Positions 40,827-61,367 of a DNA stretch of 64,000 nt are shown piece by piece. The notes under the pieces were generated by a model, which saw nothing but the letters and a program-made list of their open reading frames with translations, did no database searches and was not told the DNA's origin. The DNA lies in NCBI RefSeq assembly GCF_901827185.1, contig NZ_LR594671.1:2356001-2420000 (forward strand), in the 5' to 3' direction. This DNA comes from Variovorax sp. PBL-E5 (lineage in GTDB: Bacteria; Pseudomonadota; Gammaproteobacteria; Burkholderiales; Burkholderiaceae_C). The first letter of the stretch is position 1, and every line of letters starts with the position of its first letter. Both the position numbers and the translations under genes were made by a program.

Positions 40827-40841
40827 GCGATATTCTCGGTC

Positions 40842-41567: not shown

Positions 41568-41624
41568 ACACCACCACACCACGTTGTCCGCCCGCAAGGA
41601 TCGGTGGCCGGCCTGTCGGGCGTG

Positions 41625-44627: not shown

Positions 44628-44679
44628 TGCGTCGAGTTTGGGGTTTGCCCTAGGCGCCGTCTGTCCCCTTACCGGGGAC
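44628..44679 (-). promoter_or_regulatory. Dyad-box promoter 1 (P450 and KstD-like operon)
   Basis: Operator GTCCCC-N5-GGGGAC at 44663-44679. On the minus strand GGGGACAGACG puts a weak -35 (CAGACG, 44658-44663), then exactly 17 bp, then -10 CAAACT (44635-44640). Predicted +1 near 44628, a 24-nt leader with AGGAG. Same architecture as six other sites in this island. Confidence 0.65.
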
Positions 44680-44714
44680 GGGACGCGCCTTGAGATTCCG
44701 TGGCGGCGTGCGCT

Positions 44715-44767
44715 GTCACGCGGGATGGGGACAGACGTTCCGTCCGCAGCTTGATTTACTCGCGCCC
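44715..44767 (+). promoter_or_regulatory. Dyad-box promoter 2 (binding protein at 44796)
   Basis: 18-bp operator GTCAC-N7-GGGGAC at 44715-44732, weak -35 CAGACG (44732-44737), 17 bp, -10 TTTACT (44755-44760). Predicted +1 near 44767; the 29-nt leader contains an AGGAG site. Confidence 0.65.
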
Positions 44768-44795
44768 ATCCATCGAACGACTCAGGAGACACAAC

Positions 44796-46004
44796 ATGCG
44801 CGCTTCCCTCCTTGCCCTCGCGGCCTCCATCGCCCTCGCATCCGGCGCGGGGGCGTATGCCCAGAAGAACTACGGCCCCGGCGCCAGCGACACCGAGATC
44901 AAGCTCGGCCAGACGGTGGCGTACAGCGGTCCCGGTTCGGCCTACGCGATGGTCGGCCGCATGTCGGTGGCCTACTTCAAGATGCTCAACGAAACCAGGG
45001 GCGGCATCCACGGACGAAAGATCAATCTGCTGTCCGTGGACGATGCCTACAGTCCGCCCAAGACGGTGGAGGGCACGCGCAAGCTGGTCGAGTCCGATCA
45101 GGTGCTGGCGATGGTCAACTCGATGGGGACGGCCGCGCAGACCTCGGTGCAGAAGTACCTCAATGCCAAGCAGGTGCCGCAGGTGTTCTTCTATGCGTCG
45201 AGCCCCGGCCTGCACGACGCCAAGGCCACGCCCTGGACGGTGCCGTTTTCCTTCGCCTACGACATCGAAGGGTCGATCTACGGAAAGTATCTGGCCGAAT
45301 CGAGGCCGCAGGCCAAGATCGGCGTGCTCTACCAGAACGACGATGTCGGCAAGTCGTACATGCGCGGCTTTCGCAAGGCCCTGGGCGACAAGCAGCGCAA
45401 CATCGTCAAGGAAGTCAGCCAGGAGATGAGCGACCCGACCGTCGATTCGCAGATCCTGCAACTGCAGGCCTCGGGCGCCGACGTGCTGGTGGCGTTCACC
45501 TCGAACAAGGCGCAGGCCCAGGCGATCAGGAAGGTGGCCGCGATCGGCTGGAAGCCTTTCTACATCGTGCCCTATGTCTCGAGTTCCATCACCGGCGTGC
45601 TCGCGCCGGCCGGCCTCGACAACGCGGTGGGCCTGGTGTCGAGCTACTGGTTCAAGACGCCGTCCGATCCGACCTGGACCCAGGACAAGGCGATGCAGGA
45701 GTACCTGGCCTTCTTCAAGAAATACCTCCCCAATGACGATCCGGGCGACACCACCTCGGTCTACACCTACATGGGCGCGCAGCTCACTGCGCTGGTGCTG
45801 GAGCGCTGCGGCGACAACCTCACGCGCGAGAACTTCCTCAAGCAGGTGCAGGGCCTCAAGGATGTGGAACTCGGCATGCTGCTGCCGGGCATGAAGATCA
45901 ACTTCAGTGCCGACGACTACTACCCGATCCGCCAGGCGCGCCTGGCGCAGTTCGACGGCAAGTCGTGGAAGCCGATGACGGAGCTGATCACGATCGAGCG
46001 TTGA
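44796..46004 (+). CDS. Liv-type ABC transporter substrate-binding protein (catabolic island)
   Basis: 402 residues. Signal peptide to about residue 23 (AGAYAQ), then a type I binding protein starting GASDTEIKLGQTVAYSGP, a subgroup often linked to aromatic or terpenoid catabolism. AGGAG lies before the ATG. Monocistronic: a strong terminator follows. It must serve a transporter encoded apart, most likely the set at 49784-53212, which shares its promoter type. Confidence 0.92.
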   Translation: MRASLLALAASIALASGAGAYAQKNYGPGASDTEIKLGQTVAYSGPGSAYAMVGRMSVAYFKMLNETRGGIHGRKINLLSVDDAYSPPKTVEGTRKLVESDQVLAMVNSMGTAAQTSVQKYLNAKQVPQVFFYASSPGLHDAKATPWTVPFSFAYDIEGSIYGKYLAESRPQAKIGVLYQNDDVGKSYMRGFRKALGDKQRNIVKEVSQEMSDPTVDSQILQLQASGADVLVAFTSNKAQAQAIRKVAAIGWKPFYIVPYVSSSITGVLAPAGLDNAVGLVSSYWFKTPSDPTWTQDKAMQEYLAFFKKYLPNDDPGDTTSVYTYMGAQLTALVLERCGDNLTRENFLKQVQGLKDVELGMLLPGMKINFSADDYYPIRQARLAQFDGKSWKPMTELITIER

Positions 46005-46024
46005 TGGCGGAAAGGATCTCCAGG

Positions 46025-46050
46025 AAAAAGGCCGCATGCGCGGCCTTTTT
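46025..46050. terminator. Bidirectional intrinsic terminator
   Basis: Stem AAAAAGGCCGC/GCGGCCTTTTT with loop ATGC, lying between two convergent genes. It has T-runs on both strands and so serves both. Confidence 0.9.
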
Positions 46051-46073
46051 CCTTGTGCGAATGTCCGGCCGAT

Positions 46074-48056
46074 TCAGGCCGTCGCCTGCGCCTCGCGAAA
46101 CCCCTCGAGCACCGCATCGTCGACTTCGCGCGGCGCCACGCAATCGCCGATGCGGCGCACGGGCAGGCCGCGCGCGCTCAGCTGGTGGTAGAGCGCATCC
46201 TCGCTGGTGCGCTGCATCGACAGCACGACCGTGTCGGCTGCCAGCGCCTCGGCCGCACCGCCGAGCGTGCTGCTCAGAATGGCGTGGCCCGGCGCGATGC
46301 TGTCGACCCGGGTCGAGGCGCGCATCGCGACCCCGGCTTCGGTCACGCGCGGCATCAGCCATGGCCAGTCGAGCGTGGCTTCGAGCTTGTGCCCGAGCAT
46401 CGCATCGGCGGTGACCACCGTGACCTCGCGCCCCGTGGCCGCCAGCAATCGCGCCAGGCCCAGCGGCAGGTAGTCGCCGTTGTCATCCACGATCAGCACG
46501 CGCCGGCCGCAGACCGGGAGCTGGTCGAGCGCCGAGAGCACATCCATCACGTGCGGCAATTCCGCGCCAGCCATCGTGTCTCGGTCGGTGCGGAACATCG
46601 AGCGCCCGCCGGTCTGCCAGCGCGCGCCCGTGGCCACCACGACCTCGTCGGCACCGGCGGCTGCGACCGCCGCGGCCGTGGCCTCCCGGTGCAGGACGAT
46701 CTCCACGCCCCGTCGCCGCACCGAGGCTTCCAGGTCGTCGACCAGGAAGTTCCACGATGCGTAGTCCGGCAACAGGCCGGCCTTGCGGATCTGGCCGCCG
46801 AGCTGGCCGCTGCGCTCCCACAGCGTGACGCGGTGCCCGCGCGCCGCCGCGGTGTCCGCGAACTTGAGGCCGGCGGGGCCGCCGCCGATCACCAGAACCC
46901 TTCGTGCGCCGGCGGGCGGCTTGATGACGACGGCCGCGCCGAATTGCAGCTCGCGGCCGGCCACCGGGTTGACGGTGCAGCTCACGTTCTGTCCGAGCCG
47001 GCGCCAGCAGCCCTGGTTGGCGCCGACGCAGCGGCGCGTTTCTTCGGCGCGGCCCTGTTGCGCCTTGCGCACGATCTCGGGGTCGGCAATGTGCGCGCGC
47101 ACCAGGCCGACGAGGTCCGATTGCCCGCGCTGCACGATCTCCGCCGCCTTCTCGATGCTGCGCACCGAGCCCTGGATCAAGAGCGGAATGCGGCCCGCCA
47201 ACGCCGCGCGCACCGGCGCTGCGCCGGCGGCGAGCGGCGCGGTTTCTCCGCTCGATTGCGGCGGCACGAGTTTGTGGTTCTGGTGGTAGTCGGTGTGCGA
47301 GAGGCACACGTAGTCGAAGAGCCGCGCCTGTTCCAGCAACTGCACGACGCGGACGGTCTCGCGCGGCGTGGTGCCGGCCTCGCCGAGGTATTCGTCGAGG
47401 CTCAGCTTGATGCCCACGACGAACTCGCTGCCGCAGCGCTGGCGCACCGCCTTGCCGATCTCCAGTGCCAGCCGCGCGCGGCGCTCGGTGTCGCCGCCCC
47501 AGGCATCGTCGCGCCGGTTCCAGTAGGGCGACAGGAAGTTGCTGACGAGATAGCCGTGCGAGCCGTGGATCTCCACACCGTCGCCGCCGCCTGCCTGCAC
47601 GTTGGCGCAGGTGGCCGCAAAGCCGGCGATCACCTCGCGGATGTCTTCTTCCTCCATCGGCTTGGGCATCGCGCGGTGCACGGGCGAGGGCAGCGGCGAG
47701 GGCGCCATCACCGCGCCCCAGTGGTCGATGTCGTCGGTGCGCCGCGTGCCGCTGGCGCCCATGTGCGTGACCTGCACGAACACCGGAACGCCGTGTCGCT
47801 TGCTGGGCTGGACGAAGGCCTGCACCGCATCGGCCCAGGCCGGTTCCCAGGGCGAGACGCCCGCGCGCGCGCTGGCCGGGTGCACGTGAAAGCCATGCGT
47901 CACGATCAGGCCGACGCCGCCGCGCGCGCGTTCGGCCAGGTAGGCGCCATAGGCCGGCGGCGGCAGGCTCACCTGGTGCGCGGGCAGGTAGATCCGGTTG
48001 CGTGTCTGCACGGGGCCGATGCGCACCGGCTCCCACAGCGCGTCGAGCGGGTTCAT
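46074..48056 (-). CDS. Old-yellow-enzyme-type NADH:flavin oxidoreductase with FeS and FAD domains
   Basis: 660 residues in the 2,4-dienoyl-CoA reductase / trimethylamine dehydrogenase layout. TIM barrel with FMN at 1-350 (active-site HGSHGYL, then WNRRDDAWGG), 4Fe-4S Cys cluster in RRCVGANQGCWRRLGQNVSC near 330-355, and a C-terminal FAD/NAD domain with GGGPAGLKFADT. Such enzymes reduce enoyl or dienoyl groups. Third gene of an SDR-SDR-OYE operon, 1 bp after the SDR stop. Acting on the same ring as the KstD-like enzyme is plausible. Confidence 0.9.
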   Translation of the reverse strand: MNPLDALWEPVRIGPVQTRNRIYLPAHQVSLPPPAYGAYLAERARGGVGLIVTHGFHVHPASARAGVSPWEPAWADAVQAFVQPSKRHGVPVFVQVTHMGASGTRRTDDIDHWGAVMAPSPLPSPVHRAMPKPMEEEDIREVIAGFAATCANVQAGGGDGVEIHGSHGYLVSNFLSPYWNRRDDAWGGDTERRARLALEIGKAVRQRCGSEFVVGIKLSLDEYLGEAGTTPRETVRVVQLLEQARLFDYVCLSHTDYHQNHKLVPPQSSGETAPLAAGAAPVRAALAGRIPLLIQGSVRSIEKAAEIVQRGQSDLVGLVRAHIADPEIVRKAQQGRAEETRRCVGANQGCWRRLGQNVSCTVNPVAGRELQFGAAVVIKPPAGARRVLVIGGGPAGLKFADTAAARGHRVTLWERSGQLGGQIRKAGLLPDYASWNFLVDDLEASVRRRGVEIVLHREATAAAVAAAGADEVVVATGARWQTGGRSMFRTDRDTMAGAELPHVMDVLSALDQLPVCGRRVLIVDDNGDYLPLGLARLLAATGREVTVVTADAMLGHKLEATLDWPWLMPRVTEAGVAMRASTRVDSIAPGHAILSSTLGGAAEALAADTVVLSMQRTSEDALYHQLSARGLPVRRIGDCVAPREVDDAVLEGFREAQATA

Positions 48057-48057
48057 T

Positions 48058-48789
48058 TCAGGAGAAGCACATGCCGCCGTTGACGTCCAGTACCGCGCCG
48101 GTGGTGAAGCTGGCGCCGCGCGAAGCCAGGAAGGCGGCCGGCCAGCCGATCTCTTCCGGCTGGCCCAGGCGCTGCATCGGATACTGGTCGACGGTGAAGG
48201 GTTGCTTGGCCGAGAGCAGCAGCGGCGTGAGGATCGGGCCCGGCGCCACGCCGTTCACGACCACGCCGGAGGCCGCAGCCTGCCGGGCGAAGTAGCGCAC
48301 CAGCGCCGAGAGGCCGCCCTTCGATGCCGCATAGGCCGGCTCCACGGCCAGGGTCGATCCGGCATTGCGTGCGGCCATCGAACTGGTCAGCACGATGCGG
48401 CCGCTGCCGCGTTTCATCATCCCGGGCAGCACGGCGCGCAACAGGTTGACCGGGCCCTTGACGTTGACGGCCATGGTGCGTTCGAACAGCGCTTCCCATT
48501 CGTCGCCGCCGTCGAGCCAGTCGCCCTTGACGTAGTAGCCGCTCGTGTCGATCAGCGCGTCGATCTCGCCGATGTCCTTGAGCAATGCGTTGACGTCCTC
48601 GCGTTTCGTGTTGTCGAGCGAGGCGGCGCGGGCCTTCAGCTCCTCGGCCAGCGCGGTCGGCGCCGTGAGGTCGGCGATGAACAGTTCGGCGCCCAGCGCC
48701 GCGCAGACGCGTGCCGTGGCGCCGCCGATGGCGCCGCCCGCACCGGTCACGAGGATGCGCTCGCCGCGCAGGTCGAAGAGGTTTTTCAT
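48058..48789 (-). CDS. Short-chain dehydrogenase/reductase
   Basis: 243 residues. TGAGGAIG near residue 15; the usual NNAG is DTSG, a mild departure; active site Ser with YAASK is intact; C-terminal VLDVNGGM. Start overlaps the upstream SDR stop by 4 bp. Middle gene of the SDR-SDR-OYE operon driven from 49667-49719. Substrate unknown, likely a ring or side-chain alcohol of the island's compound. Confidence 0.88.
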   Translation of the reverse strand: MKNLFDLRGERILVTGAGGAIGGATARVCAALGAELFIADLTAPTALAEELKARAASLDNTKREDVNALLKDIGEIDALIDTSGYYVKGDWLDGGDEWEALFERTMAVNVKGPVNLLRAVLPGMMKRGSGRIVLTSSMAARNAGSTLAVEPAYAASKGGLSALVRYFARQAAASGVVVNGVAPGPILTPLLLSAKQPFTVDQYPMQRLGQPEEIGWPAAFLASRGASFTTGAVLDVNGGMCFS

Positions 48790-49640
48790 GGTGTGTGTCC
48801 TTCAGGAGAGTGAGGGGGTGTGCCGTACGCGCCGGCCTCGAGCAGCGCGCGCGAGCCGAGGTCGGCGCCGTTCCAGCGCGTGAAGAAGCCGGCGGCGCTG
48901 CCGCCGTCGACGGTCATCACCGAGCCGGTGACATAGCTGGCCGCATCGGACAGCAGGAAGAGGCCAGGGCCGGCCTGTTCTTCCGGCCGGCACAGGCGTC
49001 CGAGCGGGTTGCGGTCCACCATCGCGTACTGCAGGTGGTCCGACGGGATGTTGGCCTTCAGGAGCGGCGTGTCGACCACGCCCGGCGCGAGCGCGTTGAC
49101 GCGCACGCCGAAGCGTCCCCATTCGATGGCCAATGCGCGCGTGAGGCCGATCACGCCGTGCTTGGACGCGCTGTAGTGCGCGCGGCCCGCGTGGCCGCCG
49201 AGGCCATCGATCGACGCGACCGTGACGATCGCGCCGCGCTGCCGCGCCACCATGCGCCGGCCCACCGGCTGGACCGAGCGGAACATGCCGGTCAGGTTGA
49301 CGTCCAGACAACGCGTCCAGAGTTCGTCGGGCATCGTATCGGCGGCGGAAGGTGGCGAGATGCCGGCGCAGGCGACCATGCCGTCGATCTCGCCCATCTG
49401 TTCCTCGACGCGCACGACGGCGGCCTCGCAGGCGGCCGCGTCGCGCACGTCCAGCGTCTGGGCGATCGCCCGCGCGCCGAGGTCGCGCAGTTCGGCGGCG
49501 ACGTTCGCGGCGCGTTCGGCCACGGCATCGACCACCGCGACCCGGGCGCCGCCGCGCGCGGCTTCGATGCCGATCGCGCGGCCGATGCCGCTGCCGCCGC
49601 CGGTGATGAAGATCAGGCGGCCCTGCAGTCCGTAGTCCAT
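48786..49640 (-). CDS. Short-chain dehydrogenase/reductase with C-terminal extension
   Basis: 284 residues. TGGGSGIG, active site Ser and YSASK. About 25 residues beyond the usual SDR end (after MTVDGGSAAGF), reading RWNGADLGSRALLEAG. The ATG at 49640 has GGAGGTG 6 bp upstream and sits 27 nt after a predicted +1; longer in-frame starts would read through the operator. First gene of its operon. Confidence 0.88.
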   Translation of the reverse strand: MDYGLQGRLIFITGGGSGIGRAIGIEAARGGARVAVVDAVAERAANVAAELRDLGARAIAQTLDVRDAAACEAAVVRVEEQMGEIDGMVACAGISPPSAADTMPDELWTRCLDVNLTGMFRSVQPVGRRMVARQRGAIVTVASIDGLGGHAGRAHYSASKHGVIGLTRALAIEWGRFGVRVNALAPGVVDTPLLKANIPSDHLQYAMVDRNPLGRLCRPEEQAGPGLFLLSDAASYVTGSVMTVDGGSAAGFFTRWNGADLGSRALLEAGAYGTPPHSPEGHTP

Positions 49641-49666
49641 GGCGAACACCTCCACATGGGATTGAG

Positions 49667-49719
49667 TGCGCCGAATGTGGCAGCGAGCGCGCGGGGCGTC
49701 TGTCCCCATGGCAAGGGAC
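49667..49719 (-). promoter_or_regulatory. Dyad-box promoter 3 (SDR-SDR-OYE operon)
   Basis: 18-bp operator with GTCCC/GGGAC arms at 49702-49719. On the minus strand GGGGACAGACG gives -35 CAGACG (49697-49702), 17 bp, -10 CACATT (49674-49679), +1 near 49667 and a 27-nt leader with GGAGG. Confidence 0.62.
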
Positions 49720-49731
49720 AACGCCGCGTCT

Positions 49732-49784
49732 GTACCACGCGCAGGGGACTGACGGTCCGGCGCGCCGCCCGAATACTGCGGCCA
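49732..49784 (+). promoter_or_regulatory. Dyad-box promoter 4, leaderless (LivG at 49784)
   Basis: Operator GTACC-N7-GGGGAC at 49732-49749, -35 CTGACG (49749-49754), 17 bp, -10 AATACT (49772-49777). Predicted +1 is 49784, the A of the ATG itself. No ribosome site precedes the gene. Confidence 0.65.
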
Positions 49785-50565
49785 TGTCTTCACCCTCCGA
49801 TGTCCTGCTGCGCGTGAGCCAGCTGTGTGTCCGCTTCGGCGGCATCGTCGCGCTTGATGGCATCTCCTTCGATGTGCGGCGCGGTCAGATCTGCGGGCTG
49901 ATCGGTCCCAACGGGGCAGGCAAGACCACGCTCTTCAATTGCCTGAGCCGCCTCTACACGCCGGCCTCCGGCGCCATCACTTTCGATGGCATCGATCTGC
50001 TGGCCCAGCCGCAGCACGCGATCGCGGCCGCGGGGATCGGCCGCACCTTCCAGAACGTGGCGCTGTTCCCGGCCATGACGGTGCGCGAGAACGTGATGGT
50101 CGGGCGCCACTGCCGCACCGGCACCGGCTACCTCGCCAATGCCTTCCGTCTGCCTGCCGTGCGGCGCGAGGAGGCCCAGGTGCGCGAGCGCACCGACGGC
50201 GTGATGCGCCTGCTCGACCTTGCCGAAGCGGCCGAGACGCCGGTGAAGAACCTGTCCTTCGGCACGCGCAAGCGCGTCGAGATGGCGCGTGCGCTGGTGG
50301 CCGAGCCCCAGCTGCTGCTGCTCGACGAGCCGGCGGCAGGCCTCAATCACGAAGAGGTGGATGGCCTGCGCCAGCTGATCGTGGACGTGCGCGACCGGTT
50401 CCGCGTCACCGTGCTGCTGGTGGAGCACCACCTCAATCTCGTGATGCGCGTGTCCGACCAGGTGGTGGCGATGAATTTCGGCCGCAAGATCGCCGACGGG
50501 CCGCCGGCCGAGGTGCAGGCCGATCCGGAGGTGGTGCGCGCCTACCTGGGAACGGAGACCGCCTG

Positions 50566-50566
<1 letters not shown>
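49784..50566 (+). CDS. Liv-type ABC transporter ATPase (LivG family, operon C)
   Basis: 260 residues. Walker [10 protein letters not shown] near residue 44, Q-loop TFQNVALFPAMTV, signature LSFGTRKRVEMARAL, Walker [13 protein letters not shown]-loop VEHHLN. The start has no Shine-Dalgarno sequence and coincides with the predicted transcription start, so the mRNA is probably leaderless. First gene of a LivG-LivF-LivH-LivM set; no binding protein is in this operon. Confidence 0.92.
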
Positions 50567-51279
<713 letters not shown>

Positions 51280-51293
51280 GAAGGACCCATTCC

Positions 51294-52166
51294 ATGTACA
51301 GCCTGCTGCAACAGATCGCCTCCGGCATCGCCATGGGCGCGATCTACGCCTGCCTCGGCCTGGCGCTGGTGATGATCTACCAGTCGACCCACCACATCAA
51401 TTTCGCGCAGGGCGAGATGGCGATGTTCTCGACCTTCATCGCCTTCCTGCTGCTCAAATGGGGGCTGCCGTACTGGGCCGCGGCGATCGCGACCCTGGCC
51501 TTCGGCTTCGTTGCCGGCTTCGCCATCGAACGCCTGGTGCTGCGGCCCCTGGGGGACGTTCCGGAGCTGTCGGTCATCGTCGTCTTCATCGGCCTCTTCG
51601 TCGGCATCAATTCGCTGGCGGGATGGATCTTCGGCCACCAGCTGGAGCCCTTCCCGAGTCCGTTCCCCGAAAAGGTCTTCGGCGGCAGCACGCTGATCTC
51701 GGGCCACGAATTCGGCACCGTGGTGGTGGTCCTCCTGGTGATGGCGGTGCTGTATGCATTCCTGCGCTTCACCAGGATCGGGCTCGCGATGCGCGCTTCG
51801 GCCGAGAACCCGGTGTCCTCGCGGCTCGCCGGCATCCCGGTCTCGTGGATGCTCTCGCTGGGCTGGGGCCTCTCGGCGCTGATCGGCGCGGTGGCGGGGC
51901 TGATGGTGGCGCCGGTCGTCTTCCTCGAGCCCAACATGATGGGCGGCGTGCTGATCTACGCCTTTGCGGCGGCGCTGCTCGGCGGCATCGACAACCCCTG
52001 GGGCGCGGTGGCCGGCGGGCTGATCGTGGGAGTGATCGAGAACCTGGCCGGGACCTATGTGGTGGGCACCGAGCTCAAGCTCTCGCTGGCCCTGCTGCTG
52101 ATCGTCGGCGTGCTGCTGGTGCGGCCCTCGGGCATCTTCGGCCGCAAGCTGGTGGCGAGGGTCTGA
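51294..52166 (+). CDS. Liv-type ABC transporter permease (LivH family, operon C)
   Basis: 290 residues, about eight membrane segments. The LivH motif GAIYACLGLALVMIYQSTHHINFAQG is split here as GAIYACLGLALVMIY then HHINFAQGEMAM. Later FAAALLGGIDNPWGAVAGGLIVG forms the ATPase contact loop. GAGAAGGA lies 9 bp upstream. Confidence 0.92.
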   Translation: MYSLLQQIASGIAMGAIYACLGLALVMIYQSTHHINFAQGEMAMFSTFIAFLLLKWGLPYWAAAIATLAFGFVAGFAIERLVLRPLGDVPELSVIVVFIGLFVGINSLAGWIFGHQLEPFPSPFPEKVFGGSTLISGHEFGTVVVVLLVMAVLYAFLRFTRIGLAMRASAENPVSSRLAGIPVSWMLSLGWGLSALIGAVAGLMVAPVVFLEPNMMGGVLIYAFAAALLGGIDNPWGAVAGGLIVGVIENLAGTYVVGTELKLSLALLLIVGVLLVRPSGIFGRKLVARV

Positions 52167-52168
52167 GC

Positions 52169-53212
52169 ATGTCGGCATTGCCTCTTTCAAGCGAGCAGCC
52201 CTCCACCTTGGTCCCGCCATCCACCCGCGCCGCGCGAAGCTCGTGGCGAGCGCTCGCCCTGGGCGTGCTGGCTCTCGCGGCGCTGGCCGTGCCCTTCGCG
52301 CTGTCCGACTACCGCATCTTCCTTGCCACCATGACGCTGATCACCGCGATCGGCGTGCTCGGGCTCAACATGCTGGTGGGCTACAACGGCCAGCTCTCGC
52401 TGGGCCACGGCGCGCTGTATGCGCTGGGCGCGTACGTCACGGCGGTGCTGATGGAGCACGCCGGCTTCGCGTGGTGGGCCACGCTGCCGGTGTCGGCGGT
52501 GGTGTGCTTCGCATTCGGTTTCCTGTTCGGCTGGCCTGCGCTGCGCCTGAAGGGCCACTACCTCGCGCTGGCCACCTTTGCACTCGCGCTGGCCACGCCG
52601 CAGCTGCTCAAGCACAAGGCGCTGGAGCCCTGGACCGGCGGGGTGCAGGGCATCGCGCTGATGAAGCCCGACGCGCCCTTCGGGCTCAAGCTCTCGTCCG
52701 ACCAGTGGCTCTACCTCGTGGTGCTGGCCGTGGCGGTGCTGATGTTCCTCTGCGCGTGGAACATGCTGCGGGGCCGGCTCGGCCGGGCCACGATCGCGAT
52801 ACGCGAACAACCGATCGCGGCGTCCGCCATGGGCATCAACGTGCCCTATGTGAAGGCGATGACCTTCGGCATCAGCGCGCTCTACACCGGCGTGGCCGGC
52901 TCGCTCGGTGCGATCGCCACGGCCTTCGTCGCACCCGACAGCTTCGGCATGTTCGTGTCGGTGTTCTTTCTCGTGGGCGTGGTGGTGGGCGGCCTCGGCA
53001 CGATCTCGGGCGCGCTGGTGGGCGCGGCCTTCATCCAGTTCATTCCCAATGTCGCCGACCAGATCTCGAAGTCCGCGCCTTCGGCCATCTTCGCGGGCTT
53101 CCTGATCCTGTGCATGTTCCTGATGCCGCAGGGCTTCGTCGGCCTGGTGAACAGCAGCCTGCGCCGCCTGGCCGCGCGACGTGCCGGCGAACGTCCCCGT
53201 CGAGGGGACTGA
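52169..53212 (+). CDS. Liv-type ABC transporter permease (LivM family, operon C)
   Basis: 347 residues, nine or ten membrane segments, with GYNGQLSLGHGALYALGAY and VGVVVGGLGTISGALVGAAF. Starts 2 bp after LivH. Its last codons (RRGD) and stop are the operator of the next promoter, GTCCCCGTCGAGGGGAC, so protein end and control site share the same bases. Confidence 0.92.
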   Translation: MSALPLSSEQPSTLVPPSTRAARSSWRALALGVLALAALAVPFALSDYRIFLATMTLITAIGVLGLNMLVGYNGQLSLGHGALYALGAYVTAVLMEHAGFAWWATLPVSAVVCFAFGFLFGWPALRLKGHYLALATFALALATPQLLKHKALEPWTGGVQGIALMKPDAPFGLKLSSDQWLYLVVLAVAVLMFLCAWNMLRGRLGRATIAIREQPIAASAMGINVPYVKAMTFGISALYTGVAGSLGAIATAFVAPDSFGMFVSVFFLVGVVVGGLGTISGALVGAAFIQFIPNVADQISKSAPSAIFAGFLILCMFLMPQGFVGLVNSSLRRLAARRAGERPRRGD

Positions 53213-53244
53213 CGCGCGCACGCGCCTGAGAGAAAGTCACACCA
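53193..53244 (+). promoter_or_regulatory. Dyad-box promoter 5, leaderless (ferredoxin)
   Basis: 17-bp operator GTCCCC-N5-GGGGAC at 53193-53209, inside the end of livM. -35 CTGACG (53209-53214), 17 bp, -10 GAAAGT (53232-53237). Predicted +1 is 53244, the A of the ferredoxin ATG. Confidence 0.6.
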
Positions 53245-53567
53245 TGCCCCGTGCCATCTACATCCATCCGAACGGCGAGCGCACCGAGCTCGACGTGGCC
53301 AACGGCCAGAGCCTCATGCTGGCCGCCACCACCCACGACGTGCAAGGCATCGTCGGCGACTGCGGCGGCGTCATGAGCTGCGCCACCTGCCACGTGATCG
53401 TCGACGACGCCTTCCTCGAGCGGATCCCGCCCGTGGTCGACACCGAAAGCCAGATGCTCGACTACACGGCCGCACCGCGCGAAGCGGGCAGCCGCCTGTC
53501 GTGCCAGATCGTCATGAGCGATGCGCTGGACGGCATTGCCGTGCGCATCGCGGACCCGCAACTGTAA
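53244..53567 (+). CDS. 2Fe-2S ferredoxin (P450-type redox partner)
   Basis: 107 residues. Cluster Cys pattern DCGGVMSCATCHV, then LSCQI near the C terminus, the adrenodoxin/putidaredoxin-type arrangement. This family supplies electrons to bacterial P450s, including CYP199 enzymes. It is the only small ferredoxin in the window, and no dedicated ferredoxin reductase is seen in the island. Probably first gene of the VOC-DUF3237-SDR-SDR-P450-SDR unit that follows. Confidence 0.92.
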   Translation: MPRAIYIHPNGERTELDVANGQSLMLAATTHDVQGIVGDCGGVMSCATCHVIVDDAFLERIPPVVDTESQMLDYTAAPREAGSRLSCQIVMSDALDGIAVRIADPQL

Positions 53568-53596
53568 GAACCGCATTCAACACGGAGAAACGCTTC

Positions 53597-54235: not shown

Positions 54236-54699
54236 CCCCGATCGCGCTGCGCCCGCTGTTCACGATCAAGGCGGAGGTCTCTGCGCCGCCGCAACTCGTG
54301 GGCGCCGTGCCGCACGGCTACACGCGGCGCGTGATGTGCGTGAGCGGAGGCCGCTTCGACGGCGAGCGCCTGCGCGGGCGCGTGCTGCCCGGCGGCGCCG
54401 ACGTCGTGCTCGAGCGCCCGGATGGCGGGCTGCACCTGGACGTGCGCCTCGTGCTCGAGACCGACACCGGCGGCCTGGTCTACATGACCTACAGCGGGCG
54501 GCGAAACGGACCCACGCCGGCGATCATGAAGAAGATCGTGAACCGCGAGCCGATTCCACGCGGCGCCGACTACTTCCGCGTCGCCGTCCAGTTCGAAACG
54601 GCCGCGCCCGGTCTCGAATGGCTCAACGACCGGATCGCCATCGGCACCGGAACCCGCGAGCCCGACGGGCCGGTGTACGACATCTGGGAAGTGGCATGA
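54232..54699 (+). CDS. DUF3237 family protein
   Basis: 155 residues, family of unknown function, recognised by PLFTIKAEV at the start, GGRFDGERLRGRVLPGGADVV near residue 36, and the FRVAVQFETAAPGLEWLNDRIAIG region, here split as FRVAVQFET and LEWLNDRIAIG. DUF3237 genes often sit in degradation clusters. Overlaps the VOC gene by 4 bp and the SDR by 4 bp. Confidence 0.85.
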   Translation: MTPIALRPLFTIKAEVSAPPQLVGAVPHGYTRRVMCVSGGRFDGERLRGRVLPGGADVVLERPDGGLHLDVRLVLETDTGGLVYMTYSGRRNGPTPAIMKKIVNREPIPRGADYFRVAVQFETAAPGLEWLNDRIAIGTGTREPDGPVYDIWEVA

Positions 54700-55484: not shown

Positions 55485-55501
55485 ATCCCTGGAGTTTTTT
55501 C

Positions 55502-56266
55502 ATGCGCATCGCATTGATCACCGGCGCCGCGGGCGGGCTGGGGCTGGCCAGCGCCCGCAGGCTGGCCGAAGAGGGACTGACCATCGCCGTCGCCGACCTG
55601 CATGCGGAGGCCGCCCGGCGCGCCGCCGCCACGCTGCCCGGCGCCGGTCACATCGGCCTGGCCTGCAACGTGGCCGACGAGGACAGCGTGCGCGCCGCCT
55701 TCGACACGGTGCAGGACAGGCTCGGCCCTGTCGGCGTGCTCGTCTGCTTCGCCGGCATCCTCAGCGCCCAGCCGTCGCCGGGCCGGCTGCCCACGGTCGA
55801 CATCACGCTGCAGGAATGGGACGCCGTGATGCGCGTCAACGCGCTCGGCACTTTCCTGTGTGTGCGCGAGATGCTGCGCCGTTGCGACGGAAGGGCCGTC
55901 GAGCACGGCCGCATCGTCACCGTCGCCTCGCTCGCCGGCCAGATGGGCGGCATGCAGAGCGGAGCGGCCTACAGCGCGTCGAAGGGCGCGGTGCTGGCCT
56001 TGTCGAAGGTGGTGGCGCGCGAGGCCGCGCCGCTGGGCATCACGGTCAACACCGTCGCGCCCGGACCGATCGACACGCCCATGCTGCACCAGACCGTGCC
56101 CGCCGGCGCCGGTGACCGGAAGTACCTCGGCACCGCGGCCGTGCCGCTGGGCCGCATCGGCCTGCCCGAGGAAATCGCTGCCGCCGTGTCGTACCTCGTC
56201 TCGCCCGGCGCCGGCTTCGTCACCGGCGCCACCCTCGACGTCAACGGCGGCATGTTGATGCGCTGA
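55502..56266 (+). CDS. Short-chain dehydrogenase/reductase
   Basis: 254 residues. TGAAGGLG near residue 8, CFAG in place of NNAG, Ser and YSASK intact, FabG-like VNGGMLMR ending. It is 17 bp after the previous SDR with GGAG before the ATG. Works in the same pathway; role unknown. Confidence 0.88.
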   Translation: MRIALITGAAGGLGLASARRLAEEGLTIAVADLHAEAARRAAATLPGAGHIGLACNVADEDSVRAAFDTVQDRLGPVGVLVCFAGILSAQPSPGRLPTVDITLQEWDAVMRVNALGTFLCVREMLRRCDGRAVEHGRIVTVASLAGQMGGMQSGAAYSASKGAVLALSKVVAREAAPLGITVNTVAPGPIDTPMLHQTVPAGAGDRKYLGTAAVPLGRIGLPEEIAAAVSYLVSPGAGFVTGATLDVNGGMLMR

Positions 56267-56288
56267 CCACCCCTGAAGGAGATCCACG

Positions 56289-57530
56289 ATGAACGCGATC
56301 GACGCTTGCCCCTTCCATCCGGCCAACAGCGACTTCAAGCCGTACTACAGCCCCGAACTGCACGCCGCATTCGAACGCCAGCGGCGCGACGAACCGGTCT
56401 TCTGGAGCGAAGAGATCGGCTACTGGGTGCTGACCCGGCATGCCGATGTCTACGCGGTGCTGCACGACGGCGCGCGCTTCTCGTCGCAGAACACCACGCG
56501 GCCCGTCACGCCCATGCACCCCGACGCGCAGGCCATCCTGAAGGAGGGCGGCTATGCACAGACCGGCAGCCATTCGAGCCTGGACGGCGCCGTGCACAAG
56601 CGCATCCGCGGCGTCACCGGCCAGGTGCTGAATCTGCGCGAATTCGTCAAGCTCGAGTCGCACATCCGCCGCCTGGTGAACGAGGTGCTGGACCGCATCG
56701 ACGGACAGGATCCGGTCGACCTGCTGCGCGACGTCAACTACGAGCTGCCGGCGCAGGTCGTCTTCAAGGTCCTGGGCATTCCCGATTCGGACATTCCCGA
56801 CGTCAAGCACTGGGCGGGTGCGCGCAGCGTCATCGATTTCAGTCCCGCCACCCACGCGCAGCAGATCGAAGGCGCGCGCAACATGGTCGCGTTCTGGCAG
56901 TACTGCACCGAGATGGTCCACGAGCGGCTCAGGCATCCGCAGGACGACTTCACCAGCCGCATGCTCGCCATCCGCAACGGCGACGACGCCGTGATGACCA
57001 TCCCCGAGATCATCACCCACACCTTCGGCGTCGCCTTCGCCGGCCACGAGACGACGACCAACCAGCTCACCAACACCTTCCGCAGCCTGCTGCAGAACCG
57101 CGGCCAGTGGGAAGCGCTGTGCGCCGATCCTGCGCTGGCGGCCAACACGGTGGAAGAGGGCATGCGCTATGCCGGCGCCGTCATCGGCTGGCGCCGCGTC
57201 GCCCTCGAAGACGTCGCGTTCCGCGGCGTGCGGATTCCCGAGGGCGCGCCGATCATGCTGTCCTTCGCGTCGGCCAATCGCGACGAGGATGTGTTCGAGG
57301 ATCCCCATCGCTTCGACATCCGGCGCGCCAATGCGCGCAAGCAGCTCACCTTCGGCAACGGCGTGCATTTCTGCCTCGGTGCGCCGCTCGCGCGGCTGGA
57401 GATGAAGATCGTGTTCGAGGAATTCGCCAAGCGCTTTCCGCGCATGCGGCTGGCCGAACCCGACGACACGCGGCACATGCATACCTTCGTCTTTCGCGCA
57501 CCCAGCGCGCTGCCGGTGACGCTGCAATGA
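56289..57530 (+). CDS. Cytochrome P450
   Basis: 413 residues, a different subfamily from the two CYP199-like enzymes. I-helix AFAGHETTTN, E-x-x-R in EEGMRY, haem loop FGNGVHFCLGAPLARLE. All canonical residues are present. GAAGGAGA lies 8 bp before the ATG. It is between two SDR genes and overlaps the second by 4 bp. Hydroxylation followed by SDR oxidation of the alcohol is a reasonable reading; the substrate is unknown. Confidence 0.92.
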   Translation: MNAIDACPFHPANSDFKPYYSPELHAAFERQRRDEPVFWSEEIGYWVLTRHADVYAVLHDGARFSSQNTTRPVTPMHPDAQAILKEGGYAQTGSHSSLDGAVHKRIRGVTGQVLNLREFVKLESHIRRLVNEVLDRIDGQDPVDLLRDVNYELPAQVVFKVLGIPDSDIPDVKHWAGARSVIDFSPATHAQQIEGARNMVAFWQYCTEMVHERLRHPQDDFTSRMLAIRNGDDAVMTIPEIITHTFGVAFAGHETTTNQLTNTFRSLLQNRGQWEALCADPALAANTVEEGMRYAGAVIGWRRVALEDVAFRGVRIPEGAPIMLSFASANRDEDVFEDPHRFDIRRANARKQLTFGNGVHFCLGAPLARLEMKIVFEEFAKRFPRMRLAEPDDTRHMHTFVFRAPSALPVTLQ

Positions 57531-58312
57531 CGGCGGCCATGTTCGCGGACAAAGTGGCCGTCGTCACTGGCGGGGCCAGCGGCGTCGGGCTGGCGCTCGT
57601 GCGGCAGTTGCTCGATGCCGGTGCCCGCGTCACGGTGGTCGACCGCGACGAAGCCGCATTGCAGCGCGCACTCGAAGCGCTGGACCCTGCAAGATCCATC
57701 GGCGTGGCCGCTGACGTGGCGCAGGAAGCGGACGTGCAGCGCTACGTCGACACGGCCATGCGCAAGTTCGGCTGTATCGATCTCTTCCACAACAACGCCG
57801 CCATCGTCGGCCCCCAATCGCCGCTGCTCGATGTCCGCATGCAGGACTTCGAGCGGATCTTCGCCGTCAACGTGCGCGGCGTCCTGCTGGGCATGCAGAC
57901 CGTGGGCCGTGCGATGCGGGCGCAGGGCGGCGGGACGATGGTCAACACCGCGTCGGTGTCGGGGCAGCGCAGCAGCCGCGCCGAAGCGGGGCTGGGTGTG
58001 TACGGTGCTTCGAAGGCGGCCGTGATCCGGATGACGCAGCAGGCGGCGCTGGAGTTCGCGCCGCACGGAATCCGGATCAACGCCATCTGCCCGGGGCCGA
58101 TCGATACGCCGCTGCTGCGCAGCACCTTCCGGGTGGATGGGCGCACCAAGGCGCAGGCCGAGGCGGCGCTCAAGCAGCACTTCCTGAACCAGCCCTTGAA
58201 GCGGGCCGCGACGGCCGAGGAAGTGGCGAACCTGGTGTTCTGGCTCCTCGGACCGCAGGCCAGCTTCGTCACCGGCGGGGTCTACAACGTCGACGGCGGC
58301 ATGACGGCCTGA
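57527..58312 (+). CDS. Short-chain dehydrogenase/reductase
   Basis: 261 residues. TGGASGVG, NNAA in place of NNAG, Ser and YGASK intact, YNVDGGM near the end. ATGA overlap with the P450 gene. Last gene of the plus-strand unit that began with the ferredoxin; a hairpin follows the stop. Confidence 0.88.
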   Translation: MTAAMFADKVAVVTGGASGVGLALVRQLLDAGARVTVVDRDEAALQRALEALDPARSIGVAADVAQEADVQRYVDTAMRKFGCIDLFHNNAAIVGPQSPLLDVRMQDFERIFAVNVRGVLLGMQTVGRAMRAQGGGTMVNTASVSGQRSSRAEAGLGVYGASKAAVIRMTQQAALEFAPHGIRINAICPGPIDTPLLRSTFRVDGRTKAQAEAALKQHFLNQPLKRAATAEEVANLVFWLLGPQASFVTGGVYNVDGGMTA

Positions 58313-58344
58313 GGGGCGTGAGGCATCGCGGGATGCCTGCGCCC
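58313..58344. terminator. Hairpin between convergent genes
   Basis: AGGCATC/GATGCCT stem (7 bp) with a 4-nt loop, extended by GGGGCG and GCGCCC flanks. No U-tract on either strand, so termination may need Rho or be partial. Confidence 0.5.
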
Positions 58345-58360
58345 GCGTCGTGCGCGAGCC

Positions 58361-59491
58361 CTACTGCACGGTCACGAAATTCCCTGCCTTGACCTGCAGC
58401 AGCACGCCGCCATAGCTCGGGTTGCGCCCCGCATCGACGCTCCAGGTCCCGTTCCCCAGCACCATCGGCACCTTGTTGAGCCTGGCCAGTTCGTCGCGGA
58501 TCTTCGTGCGATCGGGACTCGGCCCGGCGTTCCTCACGGCCTGCACGGCCACCTGGCCCAGGGCATAGCCCATCGCGGCCCAGTTGTCGGGAACGCTCTT
58601 GTACTTGGCCTGGTAGGCCTTCACGAAGGCCTGGTTCATCGGCGACGGGTCGTTGGGCGAATAGTCGGAGACGAAGTAGGTGCCTTCCACGGCCTTGCCG
58701 CCCGCCTTCACGAAGCCGGCGGAGCCGAGCGTGGAAGGCCCGACGAACTTGACCTTGGGATCGAGGCCGGCCTGCCGGATCTGCAGGATGAGGTTGGCCG
58801 CAACCTCTGCCGGCGCGGCGATGAAGATGGCGTCGGTCGGGATGGTGGCGACCTTGGTGGCGAGCGCGAGGAAGTTGGAATCGGCCGAGACGAATTTCTC
58901 GTCGGCGGCAATCGTGACGCCGGCCTTGCGCAGGTAGTCGGCCAGGGCGTCCTTCTGGCCGATGTAGCCGTCGTTGCTCTGGTCGTGCAGCAGCACGATG
59001 CGCTTGACGCCGAGCCTTTCGACCGCCAGCTTGCCGAGATAGCCCATGATGTCCACGGGCGTGGCCTGGATCTTGAAGGCCCAGGGGCCGGTGGCAAGGA
59101 TGCCGGGCGAGCTGCCGATGGCGAGGATGGGCACCTTGAGGTCGTTGGCCACGGGCGCGGCGCCCAGGGCGTCGGCGCTCACGGTCGGGCCCAGGATCAG
59201 CATCGCGTTGTCGCGCTTGACGAACTGGTTGACCAGGCTGATGGTCTGCCCCTTGTCGCCGGCGGTGTCGGCCTCGACGATCCTGAACTTGTTGCCGCCG
59301 GGCAGGCCCTTCGCATTGGCTTCCTCCAGCGCGAGCTTCATGCCGTTCTGGATCGGCACGCCGCCGAAGGCGTAGGTGCCGGTCAGCGAGTTGAAGACGC
59401 CGACGGGAATTTCCTTGTCCTGTCCGTGGCTCAGGCCACTGATCGAAAGGGCGATGGCGCCGGCGAGTACGGCTCTGCGATGCAGGGTCAT
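58361..59491 (-). CDS. Liv-type ABC transporter substrate-binding protein (catabolic island)
   Basis: 376 residues. Signal peptide with twin Arg then a hydrophobic core, ending near residue 23 (LSHGQ); mature type I binding fold starting EIPVGVFNSLTG. Last gene of an NTF2-P450-binding protein operon on the minus strand; 40 bp separates it from the P450. Its partner permeases are probably the divergent set starting at 61367. Confidence 0.92.
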   Translation of the reverse strand: MTLHRRAVLAGAIALSISGLSHGQDKEIPVGVFNSLTGTYAFGGVPIQNGMKLALEEANAKGLPGGNKFRIVEADTAGDKGQTISLVNQFVKRDNAMLILGPTVSADALGAAPVANDLKVPILAIGSSPGILATGPWAFKIQATPVDIMGYLGKLAVERLGVKRIVLLHDQSNDGYIGQKDALADYLRKAGVTIAADEKFVSADSNFLALATKVATIPTDAIFIAAPAEVAANLILQIRQAGLDPKVKFVGPSTLGSAGFVKAGGKAVEGTYFVSDYSPNDPSPMNQAFVKAYQAKYKSVPDNWAAMGYALGQVAVQAVRNAGPSPDRTKIRDELARLNKVPMVLGNGTWSVDAGRNPSYGGVLLQVKAGNFVTVQ

Positions 59492-59531
59492 GGGTGTCTC
59501 CTTGGTATGGTTGATCGGGAGGTGACGGCCG

Positions 59532-60743
59532 TTATCCGGCCACCAGCGTGAGCGGCAGCACGTCGAGCGTGCGCAGCGTGTTGACGGGGCGCCAGCGCGC
59601 TTCGCCCGCCGGTTCGATGCGCTGCACGCGGCGGATGAGCGCGCCGAGGATGCTCTCGGCCTCGAGCCGCGAGATCATCTGGCCGATGCACACGTGCGCG
59701 CCCACGCCGAAGGCGCGATGCACCCCGGCGGTCTGGCGCGTCACGTCATAGCGGTCGGGGTCTTCCCACTGGCGCGGGTCGCGGTTGGCAGCGCCCATGT
59801 GGTAGCCGACCTTGGTGTCGGCCCGCAGGCGCACGCCGCCGAGTTCGAGCTCGCCGGTGGTGGTGCGGAACATGACCTGCGCCGGCGATTCCATGCGCAG
59901 TGCTTCCTCGAAGGCGCTCTTCAAAAGCGTGGGATTGGCCTTCACCAGGGCCAGCTGCTCGGGGTGTTCCGACAGCAGCTTGAGCGTGGAGCCGATGCCG
60001 GCGATGGTGGTGTCGACACCCGCGCGGAAGAACGAGCGAACGTGCAGCGGCGCGGTGCCGGCGTCGAAATCGCCCGCGTCCTCGGCCTCGTAGATCTTCT
60101 CGGCGAAGCCGCCCGGGCGCATGTGATCGCGCTGCAGCACCTGCTGGTACCAGTCCATGATCGGCGCGGCGCGCTCCAGGGTCCGCGCGACGCGTTCGTT
60201 GTTGGGTCCGAGCTGGTTGAAGTTGAGCTCGCCGGTCAGCTTGATGCGCTCCGGCGGCACGTCGATGCCGAGCACGGCAGGAAACACCTCGAGCACGAAG
60301 GCTTCGGTGATGTCGGCCACGCCGTCGATGCGGCCGCGGGCCACGGCCTGCTCGGCAATCTCCTCGGCGCGCTGGGCGAACTTGTCCTTCCAGGTCTTGA
60401 CGACCAGCGGCGAGAGGATCTTCTGCAGTGCCGCGCGCACGCGCGTGTGCTCCGGCGGATCGATCTCCGAGATCGGGCTGCGCGTGCGCCAGGCGCCGGG
60501 CTTGCGGATGTCGCTCATGCCGACGCCGCCCTCGACGGTGAAGCGCGCGTGGTCGCTCGCCACGATGCCGGCCTCGGCATGGCGGGTCACGGCGTAGTAG
60601 CCGTGCGGCGCGACGAAGACGGCCGGCCCCATCTCGCGCATGCGCTCGAAGAGCGGGTAGGGGTTGGCGATGTTCTCGTCCGAGAACGGGTCCTCGTCGA
60701 GGACCGGCGCGTCGGCCATGTCGTTGGTGGCGGCGTGGTTCAT
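59532..60743 (-). CDS. Cytochrome P450 (CYP199-like, second)
   Basis: 403 residues, related to the P450 at 43387. I-helix RAGVDTTIAG with the normal Asp-Thr pair, E-x-x-R in EEALRM, haem loop FGVGAHVCIGQM with the normal Phe. So this copy keeps the residues that differ in the other one. AGGAG lies 9 bp upstream of the ATG. CYP199 enzymes act on para-substituted benzoic and cinnamic acids; here the substrate is unknown. Confidence 0.91.
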   Translation of the reverse strand: MNHAATNDMADAPVLDEDPFSDENIANPYPLFERMREMGPAVFVAPHGYYAVTRHAEAGIVASDHARFTVEGGVGMSDIRKPGAWRTRSPISEIDPPEHTRVRAALQKILSPLVVKTWKDKFAQRAEEIAEQAVARGRIDGVADITEAFVLEVFPAVLGIDVPPERIKLTGELNFNQLGPNNERVARTLERAAPIMDWYQQVLQRDHMRPGGFAEKIYEAEDAGDFDAGTAPLHVRSFFRAGVDTTIAGIGSTLKLLSEHPEQLALVKANPTLLKSAFEEALRMESPAQVMFRTTTGELELGGVRLRADTKVGYHMGAANRDPRQWEDPDRYDVTRQTAGVHRAFGVGAHVCIGQMISRLEAESILGALIRRVQRIEPAGEARWRPVNTLRTLDVLPLTLVAG

Positions 60744-60747
60744 GGCC

Positions 60748-61227
60748 TCACTCCTGGCTGGGCAGAACGCGGACCGTCACGTCGCTGATGCGCCAGCCGA
60801 TGTCGGTGCGCCGGAAGCGCAGGTCGTACTTGCCGAACATGGCGATCTTGCCGGGGCCGTCGCGCCAATCGGTGATGAGTGCGCGCGCATGGCCCATGGC
60901 ATCGTCGGCGCTGGCGCCGGGCACGGCGTAGAAGTCGGTCATCTGGTGGTGCATGCGCTGCCTGAATTTCTTCCTCATCACTTCGTCCATCAGCGCGAGC
61001 AGCTTGTCGCGGCCGCGGATGGTTTCCGGCGGAAGACCGCTGCCGCCCTGCGAGGCCGGCGGCGAGTTGGCGCGGGTCCAGCTGGCGTCCTCGGTGAAGA
61101 GCTGGACGAAGTCGGGATCGCCGGCGTCGGCCAGATGGCCGTAGCGGGCGAAGACGGAACGGATCTCGAGTTCGTCTTCGACGGGCAGGTGCGGAAAGCG
61201 CATGAGGGTCCCCGGGGGTGGTCGCAT
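60748..61227 (-). CDS. NTF2/SnoaL-like small protein
   Basis: 159 residues with this start. NTF2-like fold: VEDELEIRSVFARYGHLAD at the N terminus, then ASWTRA, RGRDKLLALM and a C-terminal strand region FRRTDIGWRISDVTV. Such proteins include isomerases and small hydrolases; members with dioxygenase beta chains share the fold. I prefer the ATG at 61227 because it lies exactly at the predicted +1 of promoter 6; the ATG at 61203 (eight residues shorter) is the usual-looking alternative. Ends 4 bp before the P450. Confidence 0.78.
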   Translation of the reverse strand: MRPPPGTLMRFPHLPVEDELEIRSVFARYGHLADAGDPDFVQLFTEDASWTRANSPPASQGGSGLPPETIRGRDKLLALMDEVMRKKFRQRMHHQMTDFYAVPGASADDAMGHARALITDWRDGPGKIAMFGKYDLRFRRTDIGWRISDVTVRVLPSQE

Positions 61228-61279
61228 GCGGCCAGTGTCGCGATGCGCCGGACCCGCGTCAGTCCCCATCGCAGGGGAC
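61227..61279 (-). promoter_or_regulatory. Dyad-box promoter 6, leaderless (NTF2-P450-binding protein operon)
   Basis: 18-bp operator GTCCCC-N6-GGGGAC at 61262-61279. On the minus strand GGGGACTGACG gives -35 CTGACG (61257-61262), 17 bp, -10 GACACT (61234-61239), and +1 at 61227, the A of an in-frame ATG. Confidence 0.62.
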
Positions 61280-61313
61280 GCGCAGGCTGGCCGCATGGGC
61301 TGCGGGCCGATCC

Positions 61314-61367
61314 GTACCACCGCCGGGGGACATACAAGCGGCGGCCGCGTCCCGATGATGCCGGCCA
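61314..61367 (+). promoter_or_regulatory. Dyad-box promoter 7, near-leaderless (LivH at 61367)
   Basis: Operator GTACC-N7-GGGGAC at 61314-61331, poor -35 CATACA (61331-61336), 17 bp, -10 GATGAT (61354-61359). Predicted +1 is 61366, one base before the ATG at 61367. It is the least conserved box of the seven. Confidence 0.55.

Follow-up and report, generated by a model that had tools for sequence, protein, structure and literature searches.

In this study, we have explored seven short inverted repeats (hereafter boxes) in a 64,000-nucleotide stretch of Variovorax sp. PBL-E5 (contig NZ_LR594671.1, positions 2,356,001 to 2,420,000; the window), where they stand ahead of cytochrome P450, ferredoxin, dehydrogenase and transporter genes. 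Our results indicate, with a probability that we put at roughly 0.78, that these boxes serve one LuxR-type (GerE) activator as its operator, and that its gene lies 4.2 kb beyond the window at 68168-69016. An earlier sequence-only reading of the window had proposed one regulon with one operator, and this proposal is now backed by a genome scan, by boxes at the corresponding promoters of related loci and by the co-occurrence of box and regulator over 101 Variovorax genomes. It had also suggested looking for a regulator just downstream of position 64000, and it is there, within 6.1 kb behind the window, that we found both the LuxR-type gene and an IclR-type gene adjoining it. LuxR-type activation is a known kind of regulation, and the operator and the regulator clade are the new part as far as the open-licence literature searched extends; for the naming of the regulator itself our confidence is good.

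The seven dyads, together with their strands, their overlap with the -35 element, their 17-bp spacers and their seven -10 hexamers, are those that the sequence-only reading had described (Table 1). The consensus that it gave, GTMCC-N7-GGGGAC, is wrong for the left arm at 44715, which is GTCAC; a symmetric GTCCCC-N5/6-GGGGAC fits better. The full rule is this dyad, with arms that vary, followed by W[G/T]AC (WGACG or ATACA), a 17-bp spacer and an nAnnnT -10. The dyad is 17 bp long at 44663 and 53193 and 18 bp at the other five window sites, and when gaps of 3-9 were allowed, the island dyads matching at least 11 of 12 positions had a gap of 5 or 6 (17/18 bp), with one exception at 63243 (gap 3, outside any promoter found). 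In three divergent gaps of the window the dyads stand back to back, and the remaining one, box 5, lies as described at the stop codon before the ferredoxin gene, directly 5' of the TGA of the upstream open reading frame 51458-53212. The absence of further copies from the window, first judged by eye, agrees with our matrix scan of it. Five more dyads follow past its end (68140, 71685, 74550, 74580 and 81160), which makes 12 dyads with 13 directions in all.

At the scale of the genome (7.09 Mb, of which the window-bearing contig makes up 5.66 Mb), the signal resides in the whole promoter architecture and not in the bare dyad. The string GGGGACWGACG occurs 10 times, 6 of them in the island, for 2 in a backward control. 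For the longer pattern GGGGACWKAC-N19-A-N3-T, the 7.09 Mb contain 7 matches, none of them outside the island, and the backward control gives 0; the seven are six window sites and 74550, the site at 44715 being missed for its T at position 2 of the -10. As this pattern was derived from the window sites, its presence there is circular, which does not apply to its absence elsewhere or to the match at 74550. The genome has 13 other sites, 4 of them exact GGGGACWGACG and 9 of them dyads no more than 1 mismatch away from GTCCCC-N6-GGGGAC. A full promoter is absent from all 13, and the site that comes closest joins 5 of 6 promoter features to a dyad of only 8/12. The genome scan, by which the sequence-only reading was to stand or fall, strongly supports it, with the whole architecture confined to the island; as a bare motif, the pattern is no commoner in the window than chance predicts.

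The boxes are conserved where the pathway genes are. A contig scan with the P450c protein gave 15 related loci, which we scored with a matrix built from the seven window sites. Eleven of them, on eight contigs (L008 and L017, L009, L010, L011 and L015, L012, L013 and L016, L021, L022), contain one or more boxes with a score of 20 or above, and the boxes sit at the corresponding promoters (LivH/SnoaL gap, ferredoxin, LivG/SDR gap), the conservation in related genomes that had been put forward as a check. In the other four (L014, L018, L019, L020), no box exceeds a score of 13; the P450s there share 41-58% identity with the query, and the L014 stretch spans just 4.3 kb. One of the eleven, L017 in Variovorax sp. 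WS11, is a second P450 locus, 52% identical and about 0.86 Mb from the main island on the same plasmid contig, and its dyads have no -10 at 17 bp. A LuxR gene falls within the fetched stretch of 4 of the 15 loci (L011, L013, L015, L016); the rest end too early, so that the 15 loci by themselves carry no information on LuxR.

Across the genus, the box is associated with the regulator. With at most 24 candidate proteins scored per genome, LuxR (E ≤ 1e-40) was found in 11 of 101 Variovorax genomes, and two or more matches to the strict pattern GTCCCN{6,7}GGGGACWKAC in 10 of these 11, versus 0 of the 90 without LuxR (Fisher p = 6e-13, to be taken as an association and not as 101 independent trials, since the genomes are related and the genes linked). 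The matches number 8 in G427, G444, G449 and G486, 6 in G490, 5 in G000, 4 in G470 and G492, 3 in G488, 2 in G476 and 0 in G458. Four of the 90 have one strict match, and the backward control yielded 1 match in total. In the single-box genomes G424 and G456, the gap between the end of a distant LuxR frame and the box is 23 and 11 bases; in G457 and G482, also with a single box, there is no LuxR at E ≤ 1e-5 and no -10. In G470 (L047:3463-4642), two LuxR-family stretches stand in tandem, with 47% and 73% identity to the LuxR protein of 68168-69016.

Relatives of the LuxR protein at a greater distance (33-45% identity) are also accompanied by a box, either beside luxR or in its cluster, in Sphingobium, Burkholderia, Cupriavidus and other Variovorax, and there the IclR gene of the island is missing. 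A tblastn search into plasmid records gave 20 LuxR matches, of which we examined 7 (VAI-C, two Sphingobium plasmids, Cupriavidus metallidurans CH34, Burkholderia plantarii, Burkholderia arboris and Diaphorobacter). In Sphingobium pMI1 and pTK2 (LuxR 45%), a box with a TAGTTT/TAATTT -10 stands ahead of a P450 gene; between a hydrolase gene and luxR there is a further dyad, with TACAGT in pMI1. The luxR genes of B. plantarii (34%) and C. metallidurans (35%) are each followed closely by a box and its full promoter. Behind the box of B. plantarii is a gene that carries the annotation of an aromatic ring-hydroxylating dioxygenase subunit. In C. metallidurans, G424 and G456 the box is followed by frames that, from a motif spotted by eye, look to be Rieske oxygenases of this type as well. 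We also observed a compact module of luxR, box and Rieske-type oxygenase, in that order, at L051, L054, L110, L039 and L040, in at least three genera (the oxygenase was recognised by eye and is annotated only in L040).

In the wider family, the strict dyad was found in 15 of 399 genomes (7 matches in G044, which has LuxR, 5 in G000, 2 in G148 and one in each of twelve), and LuxR at E ≤ 1e-40 in 2 of the 399, with 6 candidates scored per genome; among 399 genomes of the order, at E ≤ 1e-25 and the same 6 candidates, LuxR was found in the own genome only. Six of 14 family dyad loci from 13 other genomes (L087, L090, L091, L093, L098, L101) have the A and T of a -10 at 17 bp. G042 has a receptor-like LuxR near the box, a Rieske-like frame behind it and its best -10 at 18 bp; no LuxR-type gene was found in wider stretches around the boxes of G322 and G099. 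Some of the frames come from a crude gene finder based on GC by codon position, whose minor gene calls are not to be trusted. At L106, L107 and L108, response-regulator-type LuxR genes lie near GTCCCC-N6-GGGGAC boxes with full promoters, and L105 and L106 have very long frames (about 1700 aa) close by.

The geometry of the promoters bears on how the boxes might work. In a set of 76 boxes from 21 loci (62 without near-duplicates; the set was gathered with a W[G/T]AC filter and with score thresholds picked by eye), the -10 has A at position 2 in 64 and T at position 6 in 71, and the spacer is little conserved. Without the filter, all six promoter features accompany 59 of 75 dyads of at least 11/12 (24 island loci), and five or six accompany 68, versus 0.06% of random positions for all six. 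An ATG lies 33-36 nt behind the box, at most 2 nt from the predicted +1, in 34 of the 63 boxes having A and T in the -10, where control windows gave 2 and 3. The peak is at exactly 34 nt (29 of the 76 boxes; other offsets average 1.3), which leaves six bases between -10 and ATG and puts the ATG at the usual place of +1. In the island itself, the ATG is at 34 in 6 of 13 directions and at 35 in two more. From sequence, many box promoters look leaderless, and about half are predicted to yield leaderless mRNAs. In C. metallidurans, 4.67% of primary start sites belong to leaderless mRNAs (PMC7563307), and in Burkholderia cenocepacia such mRNAs form a small class (PMC4603805).

Because the offset of 34 nt puts the predicted +1 at the ATG, the dyad centre would fall at -43/-43.5. 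A site that overlaps the -35, with a centre near -42, is that of a class II activator, the +1 being here predicted from the ATG position. The core promoters are weak: the -35 is CWGACG or CATACA, and the first T of the -10 is often absent. The sequence-only reading had left the choice between activator and repressor open; geometry and weak core elements would favour an activator. The 19 divergent pairs, with 20.5-54 bp between their dyad centres, showed no significant helical phasing (R 0.36 at a 10.5-bp period, p ~0.09).

Based on our results, we propose that the N-terminal domain of the LuxR protein probably senses the pathway substrate or an early intermediate, and that the liganded dimer would bind GTCCCC-N5/6-GGGGAC, with its centre about 43 bp ahead of +1. 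There it may touch the poor -35 and recruit sigma-70 RNA polymerase as a class II activator, which would switch on the P450, ferredoxin, KstD-like, OYE-like and SDR genes, in putative operons, along with ABC and MFS transporters. The dyad at 71685 heads the string of alcohol dehydrogenase (ADH), FMN reductase, IclR and LuxR genes and could thereby provide positive autoregulation of luxR, with IclR possibly contributing a second input.

A role for LuxR as a repressor that blocks the -35 and is relieved by the pathway substrate appears unlikely to us. Dyad and -35 do overlap by one base, and a review cites a LuxR-family protein as the repressor of a steroid dehydrogenase gene in Comamonas testosteroni (PMC6678751), but weak core promoters are those of activated promoters, and the centre at -43/-43.5 nearly equals the -42.5 of the lux box of activators (PMC7585371). 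It is quite improbable, in our judgement, that the adjoining IclR-type protein binds the boxes while LuxR does something else. Catabolic operons are commonly under the control of IclR-type regulators, which bind dyads, and IclR orthologues (at least 66% identity) adjoin the LuxR gene and are co-inherited with it in 8 of the 101 Variovorax genomes, all 8 with boxes. Against this, nine loci have LuxR and a box without IclR (L038, L039, L040, L047, L048, L049, L051, L054, L055; E ≤ 1e-3 within the fetched stretch), the loci of pMI1, pTK2, B. plantarii and C. metallidurans lacking an IclR gene by tblastn at that threshold; among the nine, L051 and L054 were first found via the box, L047 and L049 are short contigs, and the -10 of L047 begins T-G. 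Furthermore, G470 and G492 (genomes 58% and 88% complete) carry LuxR and boxes with IclR relatives of only 38-39% identity, the ninth IclR match among the 101, G485 (42%), has no strict box, and in several loci the box stands directly behind luxR.

Returning to LuxR as the activator that reads the boxes, some of our results weigh against it. The LuxR-bearing G458 (L050) has only a TTCCCC-N6-GGGGAA variant. Near luxR of B. arboris (L056) and of Diaphorobacter (L041, helix-turn-helix (HTH) half only), 2 of 5 relatives checked in other genera, there is no convincing box. The LuxR clade is also not exclusive, as response-regulator-type LuxR genes lie near boxes of the same form in G395, G284 and G148. 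These would suit a factor encoded elsewhere, such as a response-regulator-type LuxR, with luxR a mere passenger of the island; we find this highly improbable, as the boxes track the present LuxR across the 101 Variovorax genomes and adjoin its distant relatives in unrelated clusters. At least one further GerE clade probably uses a G-rich dyad of the same form, which supports a GerE protein as box reader and means that the box alone does not name the protein. Finally, the 18-bp pattern of the sequence-only reading, taken as a bare dyad with up to 2 mismatches, was found 23 times in the window for a mean of 37 expected by chance, and single strict dyads (12 family genomes) are about as frequent as backward-control matches (one each in 10 of the 399), hence near background. 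GC-rich palindromes of no regulatory function could produce such counts, but not readily those of the whole architecture, the conservation at corresponding promoters or the fixed start-codon distance, and we give an artefact of composition next to no credence.

Table 1. Boxes and genes of the island. The genes behind each box and the leader status are predictions; positions above 64,000 continue the window coordinates (position in sequence stretch L005 + 63500).
Feature	Position	Strand	Remarks
Box 1 GTCCCCGGTAAGGGGAC	44663..44679	-	toward P450a and KstD-like genes; -10 CAAACT 44635-44640; ATG 44604, leadered
Box 2 GTCACGCGGGATGGGGAC	44715..44732	+	toward binding-protein gene; -10 TTTACT 44755-44760; ATG 44796, leadered
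Box 3 GTCCCTTGCCATGGGGAC	49702..49719	-	toward SDR, SDR and OYE-like genes; -10 CACATT 49674-49679; ATG 49640, leadered
Box 4 GTACCACGCGCAGGGGAC	49732..49749	+	toward first Liv-type ABC transporter; -10 AATACT 49772-49777; ATG 49784 = predicted +1, leaderless
Box 5 GTCCCCGTCGAGGGGAC	53193..53209	+	toward ferredoxin, SDRs, P450b; -10 GAAAGT 53232-53237; ATG 53244, leaderless
Box 6 GTCCCCTGCGATGGGGAC	61262..61279	-	toward SnoaL-like, P450c and binding-protein genes; -10 GACACT 61234-61239; ATG 61227, leaderless
Box 7 GTACCACCGCCGGGGGAC	61314..61331	+	toward second Liv-type transporter; -10 GATGAT 61354-61359; ATG 61367, 1 base behind predicted +1
Box	68140	-	toward frames ahead of FAD monooxygenase and TctC-type protein
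Box	71685	both	weaker dyad, GGGGGC arm; - toward zinc-ADH, FMN reductase, IclR, LuxR row; + toward another frame, -10 one base closer
Box	74550	-	toward gene string containing MFS gene
Box	74580	+	weak partner without -35; toward alpha/beta-hydrolase, MFS, thiolase
Box	81160	-	toward ferredoxin reductase
KstD-like FAD dehydrogenase	41625..43325	-	3-ketosteroid or oxocyclohexene-carboxylate dehydrogenase type; Pfam FAD_binding_2; best PDB match 3-oxosteroid 1-dehydrogenase 7p18
Cytochrome P450a, CYP199-like	43387..44604	-	Pfam p450; CYP199A4 among best PDB matches
Periplasmic binding protein, Liv type	44796..46004	+	Peripla_BP_6
OYE/2,4-dienoyl-CoA-reductase-like flavoprotein	46074..48056	-	Oxidored_FMN
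SDR dehydrogenase	48058..48789	-	adh_short_C2
Liv-type ABC ATPase	49784..50566	+	first gene behind box 4; ABC_tran, BCA_ABC_TP_C
2Fe-2S ferredoxin	53244..53567	+	Fer2
Cytochrome P450b	56289..57530	+	best PDB chains 5gwe, 5xjn; P450 RhF among nine matches listed
Second Liv-type binding protein	58361..59491	-	Peripla_BP_6
Cytochrome P450c, CYP199-like	59532..60743	-	
SnoaL-like protein	60748..61227	-	SnoaL_4 on longer frame 60748-61368; putative start, set at leaderless ATG
Liv-type permease	61367..62260	+	first gene behind box 7; BPD_transp_2 on longer frame 61202-62260; putative start, from box-ATG spacing
LuxR/GerE-type gene	68168-69016	-	282 aa; L005:4668-5516
IclR-type gene	69167-70027		adjoins luxR

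The enzyme set of the island (two CYP199-like P450s, a third P450, KstD-like and OYE-like enzymes, an FAD monooxygenase and a thiolase) fits an oxidative pathway that degrades an aromatic, alicyclic or terpenoid/steroid-like acid; the NCBIfam matches of the KstD-like protein are all under their cut-offs. On the same strand behind the KstD-like gene, a long frame (39792-41597) has a ferrochelatase domain (residues 273-591) and possibly serves the haem supply of the P450s, or is a housekeeping copy. Just upstream of the island is a third Liv-type ABC set (binding protein, two ATPases and permease; 33516-38373), with no box scoring 9 or more. Downstream of it, L006:1423-3142 (~84923-86642) holds two squalene/phytoene synthase genes and an amine-oxidase-like gene, which we take to resemble hopanoid genes.

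The LuxR protein carries a GerE HTH at residues 206-259 (PF00196, 38.4 bits for a cut-off of 23.5), preceded by a ligand domain that is predicted to have the fold of quorum-sensing receptors. The autoinducer domain Autoind_bind (PF03472) gave no match at a maximum E of 5 in the six clade members scanned (most matches above ~0.1 are filtered out), and profile scans found no receiver domain. LAL/MalT-type LuxR activators have about 900 aa; with 282 aa and 20.9 bits to the MalT model (profile length 903, cut-off 537), the protein lies outside this class. No LuxI (PF00765) was matched in the genome, nor in any of 14 control genomes, nor among the neighbouring proteins scanned. A published census of LuxR solos picked proteins by PF03472 (PMC10134790) and, as this domain is not matched here, would have missed the present LuxR; Pfam-based censuses may thus undercount such proteins. 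We see about even odds that these proteins form an unrecognised receptor-type LuxR clade of Alpha- and Betaproteobacteria, overlooked since the Pfam autoinducer domain misses its members, in which a quorum-sensing fold has been turned into a sensor of plant- or soil-derived ring compounds, and which drives catabolic regulons of oxygenases (some with P450s, others with Rieske oxygenases) via one conserved G-rich operator and largely leaderless promoters. Titles and abstract starts in the open-licence PMC literature searched gave no description of this operator, regulon or regulator clade. The quorum-sensing receptor fold may act as a catabolic substrate sensor, and the island is an unusually clear sequence-only case of predicted activator-driven leaderless promoters. 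With a receptor family paired to an operator and many target promoters, the ligand, and hence the substrate of the P450-rich pathway, becomes testable by a simple reporter.

The nearest known systems share parts of this arrangement. The quorum-sensing receptors LuxR, TraR and LasR are alike in the predicted fold of the ligand domain and in domain order, and the lux box lies at -42.5 (PMC7585371) where the present dyad would lie at about -43, both at the -35. Unlike them, the present protein has no Autoind_bind match, catabolic and transport genes as putative targets, and a 17-18-bp GTCCCC-N5/6-GGGGAC in place of the canonical 20-bp lux box. CrbR, of the NarL/FixJ type, likewise has a GerE HTH and an inverted-repeat operator upstream of metabolic genes (PMC5715377), whereas response regulators of its type have the receiver domain not found here. 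The GGGGAC text matches in that source are cloning (Gateway) primers, and other literature matches are a Streptomyces site table and a gene-correction paper. In Comamonas testosteroni, also of the Comamonadaceae, the LuxR-type factor TeiR/TesR is required for a catabolic set including ketosteroid dehydrogenases, and TeiR is reported as a polar membrane protein acting via kinase activity (PMC6678751); we liken it by description only. PipR, of the OryR/PipR-type LuxR solos of plant-associated bacteria, likewise has its receptor gene next to an ABC transporter and enzymes, and there the proposal is that the transporter imports the signal and that the enzymes are activated by the receptor (PMC4981722). 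PipR controls flanking peptidase genes, whereas the present LuxR would control about a dozen promoters of an oxidative pathway.

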